From NCBI GenBank assembly GCA_030431525.1, contig JAUIJC010000025.1, forward strand, positions 1-64,000: DNA of 64,000 nucleotides. Direction: 5' to 3'. The DNA is from Bacteroidia bacterium (GTDB taxonomy: Bacteria > Bacteroidota > Bacteroidia > Cytophagales > JAAEPT01). A model generated the notes under the pieces. That model was given only the letters and a program-made list of their open reading frames with translations, was not told the DNA's origin and ran no database searches. Shown one piece after another: positions 24,788-34,317 of this stretch. The stretch's first letter is position 1. Each line of letters opens with the position of its first letter. The position numbers and the translations under genes are program-made.

Positions 24788-25141
24788 TTAGTTGAACTCA
24801 TCAAATTCTGAGGCGTCCCACACGTCGTAATAATCGATATCCAAATCCTCTAATTCGAAATGCACATTCATATAAAGGAGGTTTCCGTCCTTCTCAAGCG
24901 TATATGAGCCGTCCATTCCCGTTTTGTAGGTCTTTCCGTTCACAATCACCACACCATCATCAGTGTCCATCGCCTTGCGGAAATCATCCTCCTCACAGCC
25001 CTCCATCACGATGCGAAGGTGAGTAATCAACTCAGCACGCTCTGAATTTTCCACCTCAAAGGCATAACACTCATCAATTCGGAAATTCTCACAAGGAATT
25101 TCCAGCACATTTAGGTCGGTCTTAATTTCAATCGTTTTCAT
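24788..25141 (-). CDS. Small acidic protein of unknown function
   Basis: 117 residues starting MKTIEIKTDLNVLEIPCENFRID. No signal peptide or membrane helix, so probably cytoplasmic. It is strongly acidic, especially at the C-terminus (ELEDLDIDYYDVWDASEFDEFN). No family was recognised. The frame extends upstream to 25192, but the ATG at 25141 follows a good -7 element and is preferred. It has its own promoter and terminator. Confidence 0.6.
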   Translation of the reverse strand: MKTIEIKTDLNVLEIPCENFRIDECYAFEVENSERAELITHLRIVMEGCEEDDFRKAMDTDDGVVIVNGKTYKTGMDGSYTLEKDGNLLYMNVHFELEDLDIDYYDVWDASEFDEFN

Positions 25142-25443
25142 CCTTCGCACATTTCTATTTCCAAACACAAAAATAGGACAGGCCAAGGCCAAGAATCAAG
25201 CGTCAGGACACAAGATTCCCTTTTCCTTCACTCTTTAAAGAAACGTCATTCCTAAAAATGCGCCTATCTCCCTTAAACTCAAGAAAAGCCACCTGAACCC
25301 AGCCTGAAAATATTGTTACCCCAAACGCATTGCACATTCCTTTTTTTCACCAATATTTCCCAAAAACACCAAAAAATTCTGCCGATAGCGAAAACCTTGT
25401 GCATTCGGGCATAACAGCCCCACTGCCCATTTTTCCAAAGAGA
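25142..25443. other. Intergenic region between divergent genes
   Basis: 302 bp. The only recognisable element is a minus-strand TATTTTTG -7 box (25168-25175), about 27 nt upstream of the acidic protein gene. The right part has an open frame leading into the RimK-type gene, but its N-terminus is unlike the family, so it is treated as non-coding. Confidence 0.4.
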
Positions 25444-26913
25444 ATGAACAAACTGCTCATTGTTGACAACCCAAAGAAACACCATTTCTCCGTGGATGGC
25501 GTTCAGGTGGTCTCCGCCAAGGAGTACCTCACCAACCCTGCTTTCGGCACCAAGAAAAACCTTCGGGTTTTCAACCTCTGCAATGATTACGGCTATCAGT
25601 CAAAGGGATACTATGTTTCACTTTTGGCCGAAGCACGTGATCACCGTCCTACCCCGTCCGTCAAAAGCATTCTCGACCTCAAAAGCCCATCGCTTATTCG
25701 GGTGGCATCCGACGAGTTGGATAGCCTGATTCAGCGCAGTTTGGCGGGACTGAAATCCAATGAGTTCACCCTGAGCATCTATTTCGGACAGAACGTTGCC
25801 AAAAAATATCGGGAGTTGAGCCGTGCCTTCCACAGGCATTACCAAGTGCCCTACCTTCGGGTGAAATTCCAGTACAACCAAAAATGGCAGGTGCAATCCC
25901 TGAGGACGATTCCTTCCAAGGAAATCCCTGAGGACCACTTTCCCCTTATTGAGGAGTTTGCCCAAGCCTATTTCCATAAAAAACGCTACGACAAGGCGAA
26001 ACCAAGTACGGCCAACTATTCCTTGGGCATTATGGTCAAAGAGGGCGACGAGGCTCCTGCCTCCAACCCAAAAGCACTTCAAAAGTTTGTGGAGTCGGCA
26101 GAGAAGGCTGGCTTCGCAACGGAGTTTATCACAGGAAAAGACTTCAACCGCCTGCCTGCTTTTGACGCCCTATTTATTCGTCAAAGCACCCACGTCAACA
26201 ACGAAACCTACCGCTTCGCCCGAAAGGCACAAGCAGAAGGCATTGCCTTGGTGGACTATCCTGAGGCAATCCTCAAATGTAGCAACAAAGTGTACATGGC
26301 GGAATTGTTGGAACTGGCGGGAGTCGCTCAACCAAAAACGGTAATCGTCCATCGCAGAAACCGAAAACAAGTGGAATCACTTATCGGCCTTCCCTGCGTG
26401 CTAAAGTCACCTGATTCTACGTTCTCCTTTGGCGTAAAAAAGGCTGAAACCCCTGAGGAGCTGGATCAGATCACCAGCACCATGCTCAAAAAATCGGAGC
26501 TGATTATCGCACAGGAATTCTGTTTCACTGATTACGATTGGCGCATTGGCGTATTGGATGGTCAGGCCATTTATGCTTGCAAATACTTTATGGCGCGCGA
26601 CCATTGGCAGATTTATAACTGGTCGGCTGATGACAAGGTAGATACCGAAGGTGAGTTTGAAACCCTGCCCTTGAATGAAGTTCCCTCTTCCATCATCAAC
26701 ATTGCCGTAAAGTCCGCCAAACTGCTTGGAGATGGACTCTATGGTGTAGATGTAAAGCTGATTGACAACCAACCTGTCGTCATTGAAGTAAATGATAACC
26801 CGAATATTGATTTCGGTATCGAGGACAAAGTCTTGGGAAATCAGCTTTACGAACTCATCATCAATGCCTTCAAGGAGCGGATTGAAAAACGCCTGAAGGG
26901 AATCATCCAATAA
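25444..26913 (+). CDS. RimK-type ATP-grasp ligase with N-terminal extension
   Basis: 489 residues. The first ~200 (starting MNKLLIVDNPKKHHF) form the extra N-terminal domain found in the longer RimK-related proteins. The C-terminal half is an ATP-grasp ligase with CVLKSPDSTFSFGVKK (nucleotide lysine) and DVKLIDNQPVVIEVNDNPNID, whose E/N residues bind Mg. The family adds amino acids, often glutamate, to a carboxylate. It is followed 27 bp later by a GCS2-type ligase and then an N-formylglutamate amidohydrolase-like gene; the trio probably works in one pathway. The ATG at 25444 fits the family N-terminus. Confidence 0.85.
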   Translation: MNKLLIVDNPKKHHFSVDGVQVVSAKEYLTNPAFGTKKNLRVFNLCNDYGYQSKGYYVSLLAEARDHRPTPSVKSILDLKSPSLIRVASDELDSLIQRSLAGLKSNEFTLSIYFGQNVAKKYRELSRAFHRHYQVPYLRVKFQYNQKWQVQSLRTIPSKEIPEDHFPLIEEFAQAYFHKKRYDKAKPSTANYSLGIMVKEGDEAPASNPKALQKFVESAEKAGFATEFITGKDFNRLPAFDALFIRQSTHVNNETYRFARKAQAEGIALVDYPEAILKCSNKVYMAELLELAGVAQPKTVIVHRRNRKQVESLIGLPCVLKSPDSTFSFGVKKAETPEELDQITSTMLKKSELIIAQEFCFTDYDWRIGVLDGQAIYACKYFMARDHWQIYNWSADDKVDTEGEFETLPLNEVPSSIINIAVKSAKLLGDGLYGVDVKLIDNQPVVIEVNDNPNIDFGIEDKVLGNQLYELIINAFKERIEKRLKGIIQ

Positions 26914-26940
26914 TCGCTTCCAATTAGCCTAATCCAATTA

Positions 26941-28188
26941 ATGGCAACAACCTCCAATGGACGCTTTGGACTTTTTGAAGTCTATGGTGTCGAGATGGAA
27001 TACATGATTGTGGACCGCAAAACCCTTGATGTGCGTCCACTGGCTGACAAGCTTTTTGAATTAAAAACTGGGAAGATTCTTTCCGATGTTCCCAACGGCG
27101 ACATTGAATGGTCCAATGAGCTGGTCAATCACGTGGTAGAACTGAAAACCAATGGGCCAGCCTCCAGCTTGGAAGACCTTCCTGAAAAGTTTCTCAAGAA
27201 TATTCAGGAAATCAACCAGCTACTTGAACGGGAAAACGCCATGCTCCTACCAACGGCCTGCCACCCTTGGATGGATCCGCATGTGGAAACTAAGCTTTGG
27301 GAACATGACCACAATGAAATCTATGACCTCTACAACCGCATCTTTGATTGTCGAGGCCATGGTTGGTCAAACCTGCAAAGCACGCACATCAACCTTCCTT
27401 TCAAGGATGATGAAGAATTTGCGCGATTACACTCCGCCATTCGCATTATTCTACCCTTAATTCCAGCCATAAGCGCCAGCTCCCCCATCTTGGATGGCAT
27501 GTCCACTGGACTTTTGGATACACGCTTGGAGGTTTACTTGGATAACCAAAAACGGATTCCAAGCCTTACGGGCAGGTTGATTCCTGAACAGGTGTTCTCC
27601 GAAAAGGAATACCACGACAAGATCTTTTCCCCAATCAAACAGGACATCAAGCCTTTTGACACGGAAAACATCATGGACAGCCTTTTCCTGAACTCAAGGG
27701 GAGCCATTGCCCGCTTTGAGCGCGGTGCCATCGAAATTCGGGTCATTGACATTCAGGAATGCCCCTTGGCAGATATCTGCGTTTTGGCAATCATCGTGGC
27801 CACCTTGAAGGGGCTTACCGAAAACCGTTGGTCCACCTTTGCCGAACAGGCTAAATGGCATGAAGAGGACCTGCGAAAAATCTTCCTCAACACGATTCGC
27901 CACGGCGAAGCCACATGGATTGATGACCCGAATTATCTCAAACTGTTCGGGATAGCATCTCAAGGCATCTCGGCCTCTGAGCTCTGGAAACACCTGCTCA
28001 CTCAGGTGCAAAAGGACATTCCTTCCTCGCTTCAAAAAGAGGTGAAACAATTGCTTGATTTGGGAACATTGGCCCGTCGGATACTTACAGCCGTAGAACG
28101 GAATCGCGGTCATTTCCCATTGATTAACACCTATAAGAAACTTGCCCAGTGTTTGGCAGAAAACCGCTTCTTCAACCCTTATGAATAA
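26941..28188 (+). CDS. Carboxylate-amine ligase of the glutamate-cysteine ligase type 2 family
   Basis: 415 residues. The N-terminus GLFEVYGVEMEYMIVD carries the Glu residues that bind Mg-ATP, and GWSNLQSTHINLPF and RFERGAIEIRVIDIQECP match the GCS2 (YbdK-like) fold. These enzymes join an amine to a gamma-carboxylate; YbdK itself has only weak gamma-glutamylcysteine activity, so a glutathione role should not be assumed. It is the middle gene of a three-gene operon and overlaps the next start by 8 bp, with the ATG of the next gene inside its final codons. Confidence 0.85.
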   Translation: MATTSNGRFGLFEVYGVEMEYMIVDRKTLDVRPLADKLFELKTGKILSDVPNGDIEWSNELVNHVVELKTNGPASSLEDLPEKFLKNIQEINQLLERENAMLLPTACHPWMDPHVETKLWEHDHNEIYDLYNRIFDCRGHGWSNLQSTHINLPFKDDEEFARLHSAIRIILPLIPAISASSPILDGMSTGLLDTRLEVYLDNQKRIPSLTGRLIPEQVFSEKEYHDKIFSPIKQDIKPFDTENIMDSLFLNSRGAIARFERGAIEIRVIDIQECPLADICVLAIIVATLKGLTENRWSTFAEQAKWHEEDLRKIFLNTIRHGEATWIDDPNYLKLFGIASQGISASELWKHLLTQVQKDIPSSLQKEVKQLLDLGTLARRILTAVERNRGHFPLINTYKKLAQCLAENRFFNPYE

Positions 28189-28900
28189 TCAGCGCTTGAA
28201 GTTGCTCCTGACCTGTGAACACGGGGGAAATGAGATTCCAGCATCTTACCAAGATTATTTTCTGGAGGCTAAAGAAAGCTTAAACAGCCACAGGGGAATC
28301 GACTTTGGAGCATTGGATTTATTCGGCTATTTAAAACCGCTGGCCAGTCATTCTCACTACTCAACGACGAGTCGGCTCTTGGTTGAACTCAACCGTTCTC
28401 TACATCATCCCCATCTATTCTCTTCCTTCACAAAAACCATTGCTGAAGAAAGTAAAACAGCCATTCTTAACGACTATTACTTCCCCTACAGAAAGCAAGT
28501 TCAAGAATGGATTGAGAAAGAAATCAAGCAGGGATTCCAAGTGCTTCACGTATCCGTCCATTCCTTTACTCCTGAACTTAATGGGGAGGTGAGAAATGCA
28601 GACATTGGGCTTTTATACGACCCGAGCAGAGAATCCGAGAAGGCATTTTGCAAACGTTGGAAAAGCTCAATCAATCAGATTGAACCTGCATTAAAAGTAC
28701 GCTTCAACTACCCCTACCTTGGAAAAGCAGATGGTTTTACCACTGCTCTTCGGAAGTTGTTTCCTGTAAATTATTCGGGGATTGAATTGGAGATCAATCA
28801 AAAATGGAGTGTGGATAACCAAATGGATGAGCAGATAAAAAAGGTAGTATATTCCAGTTTAGAGGAAATGATCTCTCAACACAAAAAAGCCAAGGACTAA
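28181..28900 (+). CDS. N-formylglutamate amidohydrolase family protein
   Basis: 239 residues. The opening LLLTCEHGGNEIP and HRGIDFGALDLF contain the His and Asp typical of HutG-like zinc amidohydrolases, with VELNRSLHHP and VSVHSFTPELNG following. The classical enzyme cleaves N-formylglutamate in histidine breakdown, but no hut gene is nearby. In this operon it more likely hydrolyses an amide made or trimmed by the two ligases. The ATG at 28181 overlaps the previous stop. Its stop codon lies inside the terminator hairpin of the convergent DUF502 gene. Confidence 0.85.
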   Translation: MNNQRLKLLLTCEHGGNEIPASYQDYFLEAKESLNSHRGIDFGALDLFGYLKPLASHSHYSTTSRLLVELNRSLHHPHLFSSFTKTIAEESKTAILNDYYFPYRKQVQEWIEKEIKQGFQVLHVSVHSFTPELNGEVRNADIGLLYDPSRESEKAFCKRWKSSINQIEPALKVRFNYPYLGKADGFTTALRKLFPVNYSGIELEINQKWSVDNQMDEQIKKVVYSSLEEMISQHKKAKD

Positions 28901-28911
28901 CGTCCTTGGCT
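28882..28911 (-). terminator. Terminator of the DUF502 gene, overlapping a convergent stop codon
   Basis: AGCCAAGGAC (28888-28897) pairs with GTCCTTGGCT (28902-28911). T6 follows on the minus strand. The TAA of the plus-strand amidohydrolase lies in the loop, so coding sequence and terminator are shared. Confidence 0.8.
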
Positions 28912-28913
28912 GA

Positions 28914-28935
28914 GGAGAATCGCCCTTTCAGGGCT
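28914..28935. repeat. Partial copy of the CGCCC/GGGCT intergenic repeat
   Basis: GAGAATCGCCCTTTCAGGGCT closely matches the left arm of the repeat at 18313-18331 and its upstream GGAGAA. Only one arm is present. Confidence 0.6.
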
Positions 28936-29584: not shown

Positions 29585-30286
29585 TTAACGAAGGGAAACA
29601 GTGTTCTCCTCAGCCTTAGCAGGCTTGGTCTCCTTGCTTTCTACTTTTGTAGACTCCTCACCTTTCTTGCCACCTTCTACTTTGATACCCATGAAGGCCA
29701 TGAAAGCCATACCCATGAGACCAGTAACGATCATGGTGATACCAAGACCACGAAGACCAGCAGGAACGTTTGAATACTTCATACGCTCACGTACAGCAGC
29801 CAAACAAACGATGGCGATCATCCAACCGATACCAGCGGAAGGACCGAAAACCAACGCCTCAGAGAACGTGTACTCACGAGTTACCATGAAGAGGGAACCA
29901 CCCAAGATAGAGCAGTTTACCGCGATCAATGGCAAGAAGATACCCAAGGCACCATAAAGTGCAGGAGAGAATTTCTCAACGGCCATCTCTACCAACTGTA
30001 CCATCGCAGCAATTGTAGCGATGAACATGATGAAGCGCAAGAAGCCGAGATCGATAGTAGCGAAGTCATCACCCAACCAAGAAAGCGCGCCTTCTTGAAG
30101 AATGAAGTGATCCAAGGTCCAGTTCAAAGGCACAGTGATCGCCAATACGAATACTACCGCAGCGCCAAGGCCAATAGCTGTTTTTACCTTCTTGGATACC
30201 GCCAAATAGGAGCACATTCCCAAAAAGAAGGCGAAAATCATGTTCTCGATGAACATGGATTTAATCGCAAGTGCTAACAGGTCCAT
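29585..30286 (-). CDS. nqrE: Na+-translocating NADH:quinone reductase subunit E
   Basis: 233 residues with six predicted membrane helices. With NqrD it forms the central ion-path pair that also binds an Fe centre. The N-terminus [24 protein letters not shown] and the half-repeat [12 protein letters not shown] carry the conserved cysteines. The C-terminus has a polar, Lys/Glu-rich tail of about 30 residues beyond the usual ~200, possibly cytoplasmic. It is the last gene of the visible nqrABCDE operon and is followed by a terminator. Confidence 0.95.
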
Positions 30287-30316
30287 AGTTTCTATGTTTT
30301 TGAATACTGAGACTTT

Positions 30317-30352
30317 AGTACTGAGTACCGAGCAAGCTCAGTACTCAATACT
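30317..30352. repeat. 17-nt-arm inverted repeat inside the nqr operon
   Basis: AGTACTGAGTACCGAGC (30317-30333) and its inverse (30336-30352) agree at 15 of 17 positions with a 2-nt loop. Related TGAATACTGAGAC and TTTGTACTCTGTACTT text extends outward on both sides. It fills the 86-bp nqrD-nqrE gap. Confidence 0.8.
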
Positions 30353-30372
30353 TTGTACTCTGTACTTAATGA

Positions 30373-31056
30373 TTAATGCTCCTCAACGTAGCCGTTACGT
30401 GTACGCTGCAACCAGATGATGATACCTACCACCATGAAGGCACCTACTGGAGTAACCATGATACCGAAGTTCTCATAGCCAGCAGTGTATGCACTTTCAG
30501 GGATGATAGTGAAGCCAAACAACTTACCAGAACCGAAAAGCTCACGGAAGAAGGCAATGGCCAAAATCACCCAAGAGTAACCCAAACCAGATCCCAAACC
30601 ATCAAGAGCAGAGTCCCAAGGCTTGTTACCCATGGCGAAGGCCTCCAAACGACCCATTACGATACAGTTGGTAATGATCAAACCAACGAATACAGAAAGG
30701 GACTTGGAAACGTCAAACATGTAGGCTTTCAACACCAAGTCAACTACCGCTACGATGGTCGCTACGATACCCAACTGGGCGATGATACGGATGCTTGAAG
30801 GAATCAAGTTGCGAAGCAACGAGATGATAACGTTAGAGAAAACAACTACAACCGTTACAGCGATAGCCATAACCATGGTTGGAGCCATCTGAGAAGTTAC
30901 CGCCAAGGCAGAGCAGATACCCAAAACCTGTACGGTTACAGGGTTATCGTCATCCAAAGGGTCAGTAACGTAGCGCTTGCGCTTGGCGGAGAATAATGGC
31001 TCTGCCGGCTCGGCAATCTGGGCCACTTTCTCTTGTTCCAAAGTTTCAGTGCTCAT
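30373..31056 (-). CDS. nqrD: Na+-translocating NADH:quinone reductase subunit D
   Basis: 227 residues and six membrane helices, homologous to NqrE in inverted topology. Key segment QVLGICSALAVTSQMAPTMVMA, with a conserved Cys, and IITNCIVMGRLEAFAMGN are recognisable. An extra ~25 polar residues precede the first helix (EQEKVAQIAEPAEPLFSAKRKR). It lies 18 bp after nqrC and 86 bp before nqrE, the latter gap filled by an inverted repeat. Confidence 0.96.
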   Translation of the reverse strand: MSTETLEQEKVAQIAEPAEPLFSAKRKRYVTDPLDDDNPVTVQVLGICSALAVTSQMAPTMVMAIAVTVVVVFSNVIISLLRNLIPSSIRIIAQLGIVATIVAVVDLVLKAYMFDVSKSLSVFVGLIITNCIVMGRLEAFAMGNKPWDSALDGLGSGLGYSWVILAIAFFRELFGSGKLFGFTIIPESAYTAGYENFGIMVTPVGAFMVVGIIIWLQRTRNGYVEEH

Positions 31057-31074
31057 ATCTAAAAGATTTGAATC

Positions 31075-31803
31075 TTAACTCTTTTTATTGAAGAAAGGCT
31101 CGTAGTTCTTGAAGTAAGCCTGAATCATGTTGTTCACGCCGTTCATGGTCATTGAAGCACCAGAAAGACCGTCAACCTGCAATGGCTTGCCATCATAGTT
31201 GCTACCCTCACCCTTTTGCACCTCGACAACGGCCGCACCTTCGTAAAGCTTCTTGCCTACGAAACGAGCTTGAACGTCTGCGTCAGTGATTCGGGCACCA
31301 AGACCTGGAGTCTCACCCTTGTGGCCAAAGGTAATACCCTTGATGGTTTTCATGTCAGGAGCCAAGGCTACATAGCCCCAGATTTCGTCCCAAAGACCAA
31401 GACCATACAAAGGAAGCACATAGGCAGTCACCTTGCCACCCTCCTTGTATTCAAAAACAGGATACTTTTTATCCTTGTCTTTCTTCGCCTTGAAAGTGGA
31501 ACGTGGGTTCACAGACTCAGCAGCCTTCACACCCTCCTCAATCGTTTCACCGTTCACACCCACCACAAAACCTGAGATGGACTCATCGAACATTTCACCT
31601 ACGCGGGCCTTGCCCTCGTTGGAAGCGATTTCGTTTACTTTGGTTTGTCCAAGCACAGCGGACATAACCTGGTAACGCTTATCGAGTTTTTCCTCGCTTT
31701 TGATGGTTGGCTTCAAACCCTCGGCAACACCAGCCAAAAGTCCTCCACAAACAACCGTCAAGATAAGCGTAAATACAATGACGTATCCTTTAGACTGTTG
31801 CAC
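31075..31803 (-). CDS. nqrC: Na+-translocating NADH:quinone reductase subunit C (GTG start)
   Basis: 242 residues: one N-terminal helix (GYVIVFTLILTVVCGGLLAGV) and a periplasmic FMN domain. The flavin-attachment segment reads DGLSGASMTMNGV; the residue that is usually Thr in SGAT is Ser (TCA codon). ApbE, which attaches the flavin, is not in this window. The start appears to be GTG at 31803: the frame upstream hits a stop within two codons and there is no ATG nearby. It overlaps the end of nqrB by 14 bp, so translation is coupled. Confidence 0.94.
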   Translation of the reverse strand: MQQSKGYVIVFTLILTVVCGGLLAGVAEGLKPTIKSEEKLDKRYQVMSAVLGQTKVNEIASNEGKARVGEMFDESISGFVVGVNGETIEEGVKAAESVNPRSTFKAKKDKDKKYPVFEYKEGGKVTAYVLPLYGLGLWDEIWGYVALAPDMKTIKGITFGHKGETPGLGARITDADVQARFVGKKLYEGAAVVEVQKGEGSNYDGKPLQVDGLSGASMTMNGVNNMIQAYFKNYEPFFNKKS

Positions 31804-32953
31804 GGCTCAATCTTCTTTTTTTGTTGGCATTTACTACAAAGTAGTCGATCAATGGAGCGAGCACGTTCATCAACAAGATGGCGAGCATCACACCCTCTGG
31901 ATAAGCTGGGTTGATTACGCGAATCAAGATGGACAAGAAGCCAGCCATGAAACCGTAAATCCATTTACCGACATTCGTTTGGGCAGCGGATACTGGGTCA
32001 GTTGCCATAAAGACAGTACCGAAAGCGAATCCACCCATGATCAACTGATAATAGGCAGGTACAGCTCCGAAACCTCCGTTGTTGAAAGTCTGAACCAAGT
32101 AGCCCATTGCAAGACCACCCAAAACCATGGAAACCATAATTCTCCAGCTACCCACACCAGTGATGACCAAGATGGCAGCACCAATCAAACACATCAAAGC
32201 GGAAGTCTCACCGATAGAACCAGGGATGTTTCCAAAGAAAAGGTTTTCAACACTGAACAATCCGTTTCCAGCAGCAACCAATTCAGCAACCTGCTCTTTT
32301 GACTTAGAAGCAATGTCACCCAATACAGTAGCACCAGTGTAACCGTCAAGAGCGGTCCACACTTGGTCACCAGACATGTTCTTGGCGTAACCGAAGAACA
32401 ATACCGCACGAGCGGTCAAGGCTGGGTTCAACAAGTTCATTCCAGTACCACCGAACACCTCTTTACCAAGAAGTACAGCGATAATAGTAGCAACAGCAAC
32501 CATCCACAATGGCATGGTCGGTGGTACCACCAATGGAATAAGCATCCCAGAAACCAAGAAACCTTCGTTAACTGGGTGTTTACGAACTACTGAGAAAACA
32601 AATTCTACAGCAAGACCTGTTGCATAACATACAGCAACAATTGGTAGCGTTTTGATAGCACCGAACGCAAAGGCGGAACCAAAAGTAAAGGCCTCGCCAG
32701 CTGCAGTGAAGTGCTGCACACCAACATTATACATACCGTACAACAAACAAGGAATCAAGGCTACAATTACTGTAACCATCATACGCTTGAGGTCAACGGC
32801 GTCACGCACGTGGGCACCTTTAGAAGGAGCCGTATGGTTTGGCTGGAAGAACAGCGTCTCGTGCGCCTCGTAGAGATAGTAATACTTCTCCCACTTGCCC
32901 CCCTTCTCAAAGTTGGGCTTTACATTATCGAGAATGTCCCTAATGAACTGCAT
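31790..32953 (-). CDS. nqrB: Na+-translocating NADH:quinone reductase subunit B
   Basis: 387 residues, about ten membrane helices; it forms the main Na+ channel and carries riboflavin plus a covalent FMN. The opening QFIRDILDNVKPNFEKGGKW is typical. The FMN threonine lies in DGYTGATVLGD near residue 205, and the sequence around it matches the family. It starts 11 bp after nqrA and overlaps nqrC by 14 bp. Confidence 0.97.
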   Translation of the reverse strand: MQFIRDILDNVKPNFEKGGKWEKYYYLYEAHETLFFQPNHTAPSKGAHVRDAVDLKRMMVTVIVALIPCLLYGMYNVGVQHFTAAGEAFTFGSAFAFGAIKTLPIVAVCYATGLAVEFVFSVVRKHPVNEGFLVSGMLIPLVVPPTMPLWMVAVATIIAVLLGKEVFGGTGMNLLNPALTARAVLFFGYAKNMSGDQVWTALDGYTGATVLGDIASKSKEQVAELVAAGNGLFSVENLFFGNIPGSIGETSALMCLIGAAILVITGVGSWRIMVSMVLGGLAMGYLVQTFNNGGFGAVPAYYQLIMGGFAFGTVFMATDPVSAAQTNVGKWIYGFMAGFLSILIRVINPAYPEGVMLAILLMNVLAPLIDYFVVNANKKRRLSRATV

Positions 32954-32964
32954 CTCCTAATCGA

Positions 32965-34317
32965 TTAGCTGTTTAGCATTAAATCAATACCACGACGGAT
33001 GATTGACTGCACTTCGTGTTTGGACACGTCCACAAACTCACAAAGGGCAAAATCCTCCTCGGCTACCTCATAGATTCCCAAGGCCTCCATTTCTTCGAAG
33101 TCCTCAGCCAAAATAGCCTTCAACAAGTACACTGGATAGATATCCATTGGCAATACTTGCTCCATCACACCCGTCTGCACGAATGCACGGTGCTCACCGT
33201 TGATGTTGGAATCAAGTACATGCTCCTTGCCACGATTCAGGAATGACAATAACCCCAAAGAACGGCCGAAGCTCAAACGAGAAGTTGGAGCAAAAGAACC
33301 GAAGAACTTGTAGTTGTCTCCTTCAGGAATAACAGTGACTTGGTTGTCGTAGAAACCTACGTAGCTGTCTTTGGCTACCTTCTCACCAGAGAGGATGTTA
33401 CCAGAAACGATACGCACGTTTTTAGAAGACAACTTACCATCGATCAATTTGTCGATAGAAGCACCATTATAAGTCTTATAATACTTTGGCTCGGCTACCT
33501 CAGAACCAGTCAAAGCAACAATGCGAGATGCATCGTACTTGCCTTCCAAGAAGAGCTTACCAATCTGTACAACTCCGTAAGGAGAAACAGTCCAAACCAA
33601 ATCACCTTTCCCGATTGGGTCGATGTTGTGGATCTGAACACCAACGTTACCCGCTGGGTGAGGACCGCTAACAGAATTCACCTCAACGCCTTTGGCTTGA
33701 GCGAAAACTTTTGGGGTCTGGCCATTCACGTTCAAGTGAACCTTGCCTGAAGTCAATTTCTTCAAGACCTCCATACCAGCCTCGAAGTTGGCCTCTTCGC
33801 CAGCGAAGAGTACTTCAAAGTCTGGAGCCAATGGCGCAGTGTCAAAACCGGACACAAAAATAGCCTTAGGGGTATGCGCTGGGTTAGCAACTACCGCATA
33901 AGGCCTTTGAATGATGTGTGGCCACACACCACTATTCGCCATTTGGCTTTTGATTTCCTCCTCGGAAAGACGAGAAAGCTCAGGCAACGAATACTTATTG
34001 AAGCTCTCGTACTCGACCTCTTTATCGGCCAATACCTTGATCTCCAACAAGCGACGCTTTGCGCCACGTTTAACTTCTACAACCTCACCACTTACTGGTG
34101 AAGTGTACTTAACGGCCTCCAAACTCTTATCGTAGTAGAGCGGGGTGCCTGCCTTGACCTTATCGCCTTCCTTGACCAACATCTTCGGTTTGCCGTAACC
34201 GACAAAGTCCGTAGGCTTCACCGCTAAAGTCTCCGAGGCGAGCTCGACTACTTCTGGTTTAGCTTGGCCGGAAACCTTAATATCAAAGCCTTTCCGTAGG
34301 TTTATACTCTTGGACAT
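32965..34317 (-). CDS. nqrA: Na+-translocating NADH:quinone reductase subunit A
   Basis: 450 residues, a soluble cytoplasmic-face subunit that contributes to quinone binding. N-terminal MSKSINLRKGFDIKVSGQAKP and FVGYGKPKMLVKEGDKVKAGTPLYYDK are family signatures. The C-terminal half includes SFNKYSLPELSRLS and LCEFVDVSKHEVQSIIR. It is the first gene of the operon. A TAATTTTG -7 element lies about 80 nt upstream at 34394-34401. Confidence 0.96.
   Translation of the reverse strand: MSKSINLRKGFDIKVSGQAKPEVVELASETLAVKPTDFVGYGKPKMLVKEGDKVKAGTPLYYDKSLEAVKYTSPVSGEVVEVKRGAKRRLLEIKVLADKEVEYESFNKYSLPELSRLSEEEIKSQMANSGVWPHIIQRPYAVVANPAHTPKAIFVSGFDTAPLAPDFEVLFAGEEANFEAGMEVLKKLTSGKVHLNVNGQTPKVFAQAKGVEVNSVSGPHPAGNVGVQIHNIDPIGKGDLVWTVSPYGVVQIGKLFLEGKYDASRIVALTGSEVAEPKYYKTYNGASIDKLIDGKLSSKNVRIVSGNILSGEKVAKDSYVGFYDNQVTVIPEGDNYKFFGSFAPTSRLSFGRSLGLLSFLNRGKEHVLDSNINGEHRAFVQTGVMEQVLPMDIYPVYLLKAILAEDFEEMEALGIYEVAEEDFALCEFVDVSKHEVQSIIRRGIDLMLNS

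Follow-up and report, generated by a model that had tools for sequence, protein, structure and literature searches.

What might three adjoining genes, two for amide-forming ligases and one for an amide-cleaving enzyme, make or turn over in a Bacteroidia bacterium? The genes lie in the first 64,000 nucleotides of contig JAUIJC010000025.1 (hereafter, the window), and encode a RimK-like ATP-grasp ligase with an N-terminal RLAN domain (RLAN-RimK), a GCS2-type carboxylate-amine ligase (GCS2) and an N-formylglutamate amidohydrolase-like enzyme (FGase). A reading of the DNA made without database searches (the sequence-only reading) had described this trio as an operon, serving a small peptide-like metabolite or a glutamyl-tagging cycle. 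We found that the trio is a conserved unit, commonly preceded in other genomes by a gene for a C39-like cysteine peptidase. The reading that we favour, and judge to stand a little better than even, is that this cassette serves the synthesis and turnover of a small cytosolic glutamyl peptide, with the trio as its core.

The gene models (Table 1) agree with the tight arrangement reported from the sequence, with a 27-bp gap between RLAN-RimK and GCS2 (26914-26940) and an 8-bp overlap of GCS2 and FGase (28181-28188). The start codons ATG 25444 of RLAN-RimK and ATG 26941 of GCS2 coincide with the starts of aligned homologues. Pfam confirmed every domain, with E-values of 1.5e-48 for RLAN (PF14401, 164.7 bits against a cut-off of 25), 4e-9 for RimK (PF08443, 36.8 bits against 21), 1e-26 for GCS2 (PF04107) and 8e-17 for FGase (PF05013); the extra N-terminal domain noticed on the first ligase is RLAN, a defined Pfam family. 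RLAN and GCS2 are each present in a single copy in the 4.24-Mb genome that contains the window. PF05013 occurs three times, the other two copies being within proteins of about 680 residues. Promoter and terminator scans of the operon gave scores no better than those of shuffled sequence.

Conservation was assessed in two sets of loci, (a) 75 loci collected with the GCS2 protein as query and (b) 40 RLAN neighbourhoods from Bacteroidota, comprising 39 of the 40 RLAN-positive genomes (the window's being excluded) and G010. RLAN itself was found in 40 of 345 Bacteroidota genomes. RLAN-RimK lies directly upstream of GCS2 on the same strand in all 75 loci of set (a), counting three partial genes at contig ends (L026, L058 and L061) and one split into two frames (L053). 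FGase follows downstream in 60 of the 75, and 4 of the 15 misses are contig ends. Six Fibrobacter loci (L041, L042, L044, L045, L049 and L056) have 1.3-1.4 kb between GCS2 and FGase, an interval that contains a tyrosine-phosphatase-family gene in L041. In set (b), 28 of the 40 neighbourhoods hold short RLAN-RimK genes, which adjoin GCS2 in 28/28 cases, with C39 in 25/28 and FGase in 20/28; GCS2 and FGase are both lacking in the 12 non-short cases, one of which has a GNAT-C39 gene. The cassette genes co-occur in Bacteroidota, Balneolota, Fibrobacterota, Planctomycetota, Verrucomicrobiota, Pseudomonadota, Bdellovibrionota, Thermodesulfobacteriota and one Thermoplasmata metagenome-assembled genome (MAG), with the FGase member missing in some of these, and RimK-GCS2-FGase is also present on a Legionella adelaidensis plasmid. 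Moreover, the pairwise distances of the four cassette proteins correlate across 68 complete cassettes (r 0.92-0.96, near-duplicates included and species relatedness not removed), and none of 999 permutations gave a correlation as high.

The sequence-only reading had named two outcomes that would count against an operon, namely that the genes are not co-conserved or that each has an ordinary, isolated function. Co-conservation across genomes and phyla was borne out by the adjacency of the ligases. The missing C39 and FGase members at some loci would suit three ordinary genes that became neighbours by chance, an explanation that is contradicted by the 75/75 and 28/28 adjacency and by the co-divergence, and that we regard as hardly credible.

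Two further genes upstream of the trio were considered as pathway members and rejected. Among the 75 loci, a homologue of the cytochrome P450 (23404-24729, + strand) and a match to an antisense 134-residue open reading frame (24788-25192) were each found only in the window's own locus (L076). No family other than the four enzymes occurs at 59 or more of the 75 loci.

The usual leading gene of the cassette encodes a protein of about 235 residues with weak but significant Pfam matches to C39 (PF13529/PF03412), and is found in 67 of the 75 loci of set (a). Longest-open-reading-frame gene calling hid this gene in some loci, and the counts are taken from a profile search. The eight misses comprise the three contig-end loci already named and five (L007, L014, L064, L065 and L070) where the gene is truly absent. 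All 16 aligned rows have Q11, C17, H176 and D192, the last three forming the Cys, His, Asp triad, and by eye the aligned N-terminus has no obvious signal peptide. The three genes seen in the window are real; the sequence-only reading missed this usual member of the cassette, which could not be seen there.

Searches found no C39-like gene in the window or elsewhere in its genome. Among the ten genomes searched in this way, the five positives (G019, G239, G010, G163 and G127) all have C39-containing cassettes. The negatives are the window's genome, three Flavobacteriaceae-type genomes whose cassettes are C39-less (G278, G250 and G394) and G001, an 84% complete genome with no RLAN match. The five C39-less flavobacterial rows form a group with the window in the RimK tree (support 100/100). 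The GCS2 tree also places these five rows together, but not the window with them. A shared C39-less lineage is therefore likely for RimK, on these sequence trees, and unproved for the operon.

Table 1 Features of the RLAN-RimK/GCS2/FGase operon and its 3' end in the window.
Feature	Position	Strand	Length	Evidence
RLAN-RimK-type ATP-grasp amide ligase	25444..26913	+	489 aa	PF14401 and PF08443; 20-row alignment; AF2 model
RLAN domain, N-terminal part of RLAN-RimK protein	25516..25941	+		PF14401
RimK-like ATP-grasp domain of RLAN-RimK protein	26281..26811	+		PF08443, residues 318-494 of 527-aa frame
GCS2 (YbdK/GCL-type) carboxylate-amine ligase	26941..28188	+	415 aa	PF04107; AF2 model
FGase-type zinc amidohydrolase	28181..28900	+	239 aa	PF05013; profile match to PDB 2ODF
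RF01687 'Acido-Lenti-1' two-hairpin element	28890..28935	+		45.1 bits against gathering score of 37; overlaps FGase stop codon

We compared the three enzymes with known structures and families. The AlphaFold2 (AF2) model of RLAN-RimK (pLDDT 84.6) was most similar to LysX/ArgX and to RimK, the 30S S6-glutamate ligase (Z 27.7-26.4). ATP-grasp structures aligned over residues 188-484 (190-484 for the best matches) took up the listed matches, and the comparison thus bears on the ATP-grasp fold that these enzymes share; the RLAN N-terminal half sets the ligase of the trio apart from them. LysX, ArgX and RimK form the bond between a glutamyl carboxylate and an amino acid. The trio's ligase falls far under the NCBIfam cut-offs for both RimK (29.8 against 331 bits) and LysX (47.7 against 275.6), which, with the gene context, weighs against a plain RimK function. 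The GCS2 model (pLDDT 91.9) is closest in fold to YbdK-type ligases (Z 38.5/38.2) and plant glutamate-cysteine ligase (Z 33.5), followed by γ-glutamylcysteine synthetases (Z about 22-25), and its sequence profile found no match in the PDB at E 0.01. It lies under all NCBIfam cut-offs for YbdK and GshA (at best 69.7 against 371 bits, for carboxylate-amine ligase) and is always beside RLAN-RimK in the loci examined. The FGase profile matched PDB 2ODF, the hypothetical protein Atu2144, over nearly its full length (E 8e-39), and E13, H14, R65, N71, R72, H127, R138 and E202 are invariant in 12 of 12 rows.

An FGase could also act as HutG in histidine degradation. The only hutH-like gene in the genome fails the hutH cut-off (464.7 against 539 bits) and passes that for FlxA, the flexirubin tyrosine ammonia-lyase (835 against 700). 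The genome thus yielded no Hut-type histidine ammonia-lyase, hutU and hutI not being included in the search, and the absence of histidine-degradation genes near the trio holds genome-wide as far as tested. The FGase also has no NCBIfam family match. Because of these two results we do not read the FGase as HutG; the same two results set it apart from the FGase family of 2ODF. The FlxA gene lies within a flexirubin-type cluster (G000:C70, L180).

The co-conservation of the two ligases with a hydrolase, their correlated divergence and the fold likeness of GCS2 and the ATP-grasp half argue for the synthesis and turnover of a small glutamyl peptide. GCS2 would form γ-Glu-X by activating the γ-carboxyl of glutamate for attack by the amine of a second molecule, X. 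RLAN-RimK would then activate a free carboxylate of γ-Glu-X and link a third amino acid, plausibly glutamate, through its amine. Glutathione synthesis, with GshA acting before GshB, offers the model for this order of the two ligases, which is the most economical reading. Recycling or trimming would fall to the FGase-type enzyme, which may cleave an acyl-amino-acid amide within the product, and the C39-like enzyme, where present, may serve as a peptidase or transpeptidase on the same product, a step absent in the lineage of the window. Gene order, co-conservation, co-divergence, enzyme families, the C39 triad residues and the absence of C39 here are observed; we infer the substrates, the order of the steps and the product from the enzyme classes. 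The small peptide-like metabolite or glutamyl-tagging cycle that was first suggested fits the same enzyme classes, its product being likewise inferred.

In a wider and more speculative version, to which we give rather low credence, the product would belong to a widespread glutathione-like class of γ-glutamyl peptides, made by GCS2 and then RLAN-RimK. The C39 enzyme would act on it in the manner of phytochelatin synthase and FGase would recycle it, with some lineages, that of the window among them, having lost the C39 step and so holding only the core metabolite. The retention of the cassette in many bacterial phyla and one archaeal MAG suggests a metabolite or modification that is of use to cells of widely differing kinds. 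With the C39-less form, the minimal unit comes down to two ligases and one hydrolase, a set that is convenient to express and assay.

Several observations weigh against a small glutamyl peptide of this kind. In 11 of the 75 loci FGase is absent although there was room for it, and it is absent in 8 of the 28 short RLAN-RimK neighbourhoods; the chemistry can therefore do without FGase, and C39 is dispensable too. The GCS2 model also resembles the Pup ligase PafA and the depupylase Dop (Z about 20), and enzymes of the RimK and C39 types are able to use proteins or peptides as substrates. Against the reading that the pathway is not that of glutathione, the genome encodes a GshB-like ATP-grasp protein (G000:C35) that passes two NCBIfam cut-offs for glutathione synthetase, NF009110 'glutathione synthetase' (434 against 408 bits) and NF003573 (284.9 against 272).

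This GshB-like protein, together with the single GCS2 of the genome, would suit an ordinary γ-glutamylcysteine ligase that feeds glutathione synthesis. The sequence-only reading, which had seen no glutathione genes near the trio, missed this gene elsewhere in the genome. We nevertheless find the glutathione route very doubtful. GCS2 is far under every NCBIfam glutamate-cysteine ligase cut-off (for example, 37.5 against 249 bits for gshA_cyano), and its linkage is to RLAN-RimK (75/75 and 28/28) and not to gshB. The GshB-like protein is under the TIGR01380 cut-off (242.3 against 299) and its gene overlaps one for a fusion of FGase with MATCAP, while a BshC gene in the genome suggests bacillithiol as the thiol.

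The resemblance to PafA and Dop bears instead on a protein-tagging cycle, the main rival to the synthesis of a free glutamyl peptide. Here a protein would receive glutamate-like residues from RLAN-RimK, at a terminus or on a side chain, and a γ-linked residue from GCS2, and FGase and C39 would remove the tag. RimK itself offers a precedent, since it glutamylates RpsF and RimB removes the glutamates (PMC12239564). The pairing of an ATP-grasp protein with FGase-MATCAP in another operon of the genome points the same way, MATCAP being named for a microtubule-associated tyrosine carboxypeptidase. Against tagging, no conserved target gene adjoins the cassette in the 75 loci, and small acyl amino acids are the best-known substrates of FGase-type enzymes. 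On balance, we consider tagging unlikely.

The favoured synthesis of a small glutamyl peptide has a special case, an osmolyte route to a compatible solute resembling N-acetylglutaminylglutamine amide (NAGGN). The logic of ligase plus peptidase and the GNAT-fused relatives of RLAN resemble the NAGGN genes, and several hosts belong to marine or halotolerant genera. The cassette is, however, abundant in rumen Fibrobacter, and no further gene family is conserved beside it across the 75 loci; such an osmolyte route seems improbable to us.

The pairing of the two ligases may not be new. The amidoligase paper of Iyer et al. 2009 (Mol Biosyst 5:1636) reportedly predicted it, with neighbourhoods in which RLAN fused to a RimK ATP-grasp lies beside GCS2, as here; that paper or the Pfam entry of the family is reported to define RLAN by its near-constant occurrence next to GCS2. 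The trio would then be the C39-less form of a reportedly known but uncharacterised kind of cassette. Two operons described in the accessible parts of other papers share features with it. In the NAGGN operon (PA3459-PA3461, asnO-ngg), a peptidase gene accompanies the non-ribosomal ligation of glutamine units, in which Ngg N-acetylates one glutamine and attaches another to it; the operon differs in its GNAT-type Ngg and asparagine synthase, and neither GCS2 nor FGase is named in those parts (PMC8070244). The rlo operon of P. aeruginosa (RloABC) likewise combines a cytosolic ATP-grasp protein and a peptidase, but has a retropepsin-like protease and a membrane protein, again without mention of GCS2 or FGase in the portion available (PMC12239564). 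This report also cites Iyer et al. 2009. The accessible text of these two papers and of PMC2922099, PMC4431377, PMC2864571 and PMC13298647 does not describe the cassette, and literature searches, judged partly by titles and the beginnings of abstracts, returned no paper on it.

Comparison with the longer RLAN proteins indicates a separate group. Eleven of the 12 non-short cases are frames of 642-718 residues (L150, L155-L157, L159, L162 and L164-L168) with no GCS2, C39 or FGase adjoining. An N-terminal GNAT domain is fused in all three that were scanned and, judging from frame length, presumably in the other eight. In the twelfth (L169), the ATP-grasp gene has beside it another gene, which encodes GNAT and C39 domains. 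By analogy, the GNAT-fused group recalls the NAGGN route and Ngg. By eye, a recA-like gene lies upstream of the long RLAN frame in L156.

The two other PF05013 copies in the genome are FGase-MATCAP (QEGLA) proteins, at G000:C35:83456-86486 (L183:3457-6487, - strand) and on G000:C24 (L184:4998-7004, + strand), the latter assigned by sequence likeness and length and not by a whole-protein scan. The overlap of the C35 copy with the GshB-like gene makes a second ATP-grasp and FGase pairing in this genome.

We also examined the RF01687 element at the end of the operon, which has a fold z-score of -4.31. The genome contains 114 matches to RF01687 at E<=10, of which 43 exceed the gathering score, and many form inverted pairs. 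Elements flank a Y1 (IS200-like) transposase gene closely on both sides (G000:C39:9025-9715 region). Among 20 regions chosen around matches in 14 genomes, a transposase 55-67% identical lies near an element in three (G110, G154 and G166), making four of the 14 with the locus on contig C39. From this sequence context, RF01687 here looks like a transposase-linked repetitive extragenic palindromic (REP) element, rather than a free-standing small RNA. It is dispersed and not part of the pathway. Beyond it, convergent to the trio, lie genes that by eye are NQR-like (Na+-translocating quinone reductase; 29585-34317, - strand).

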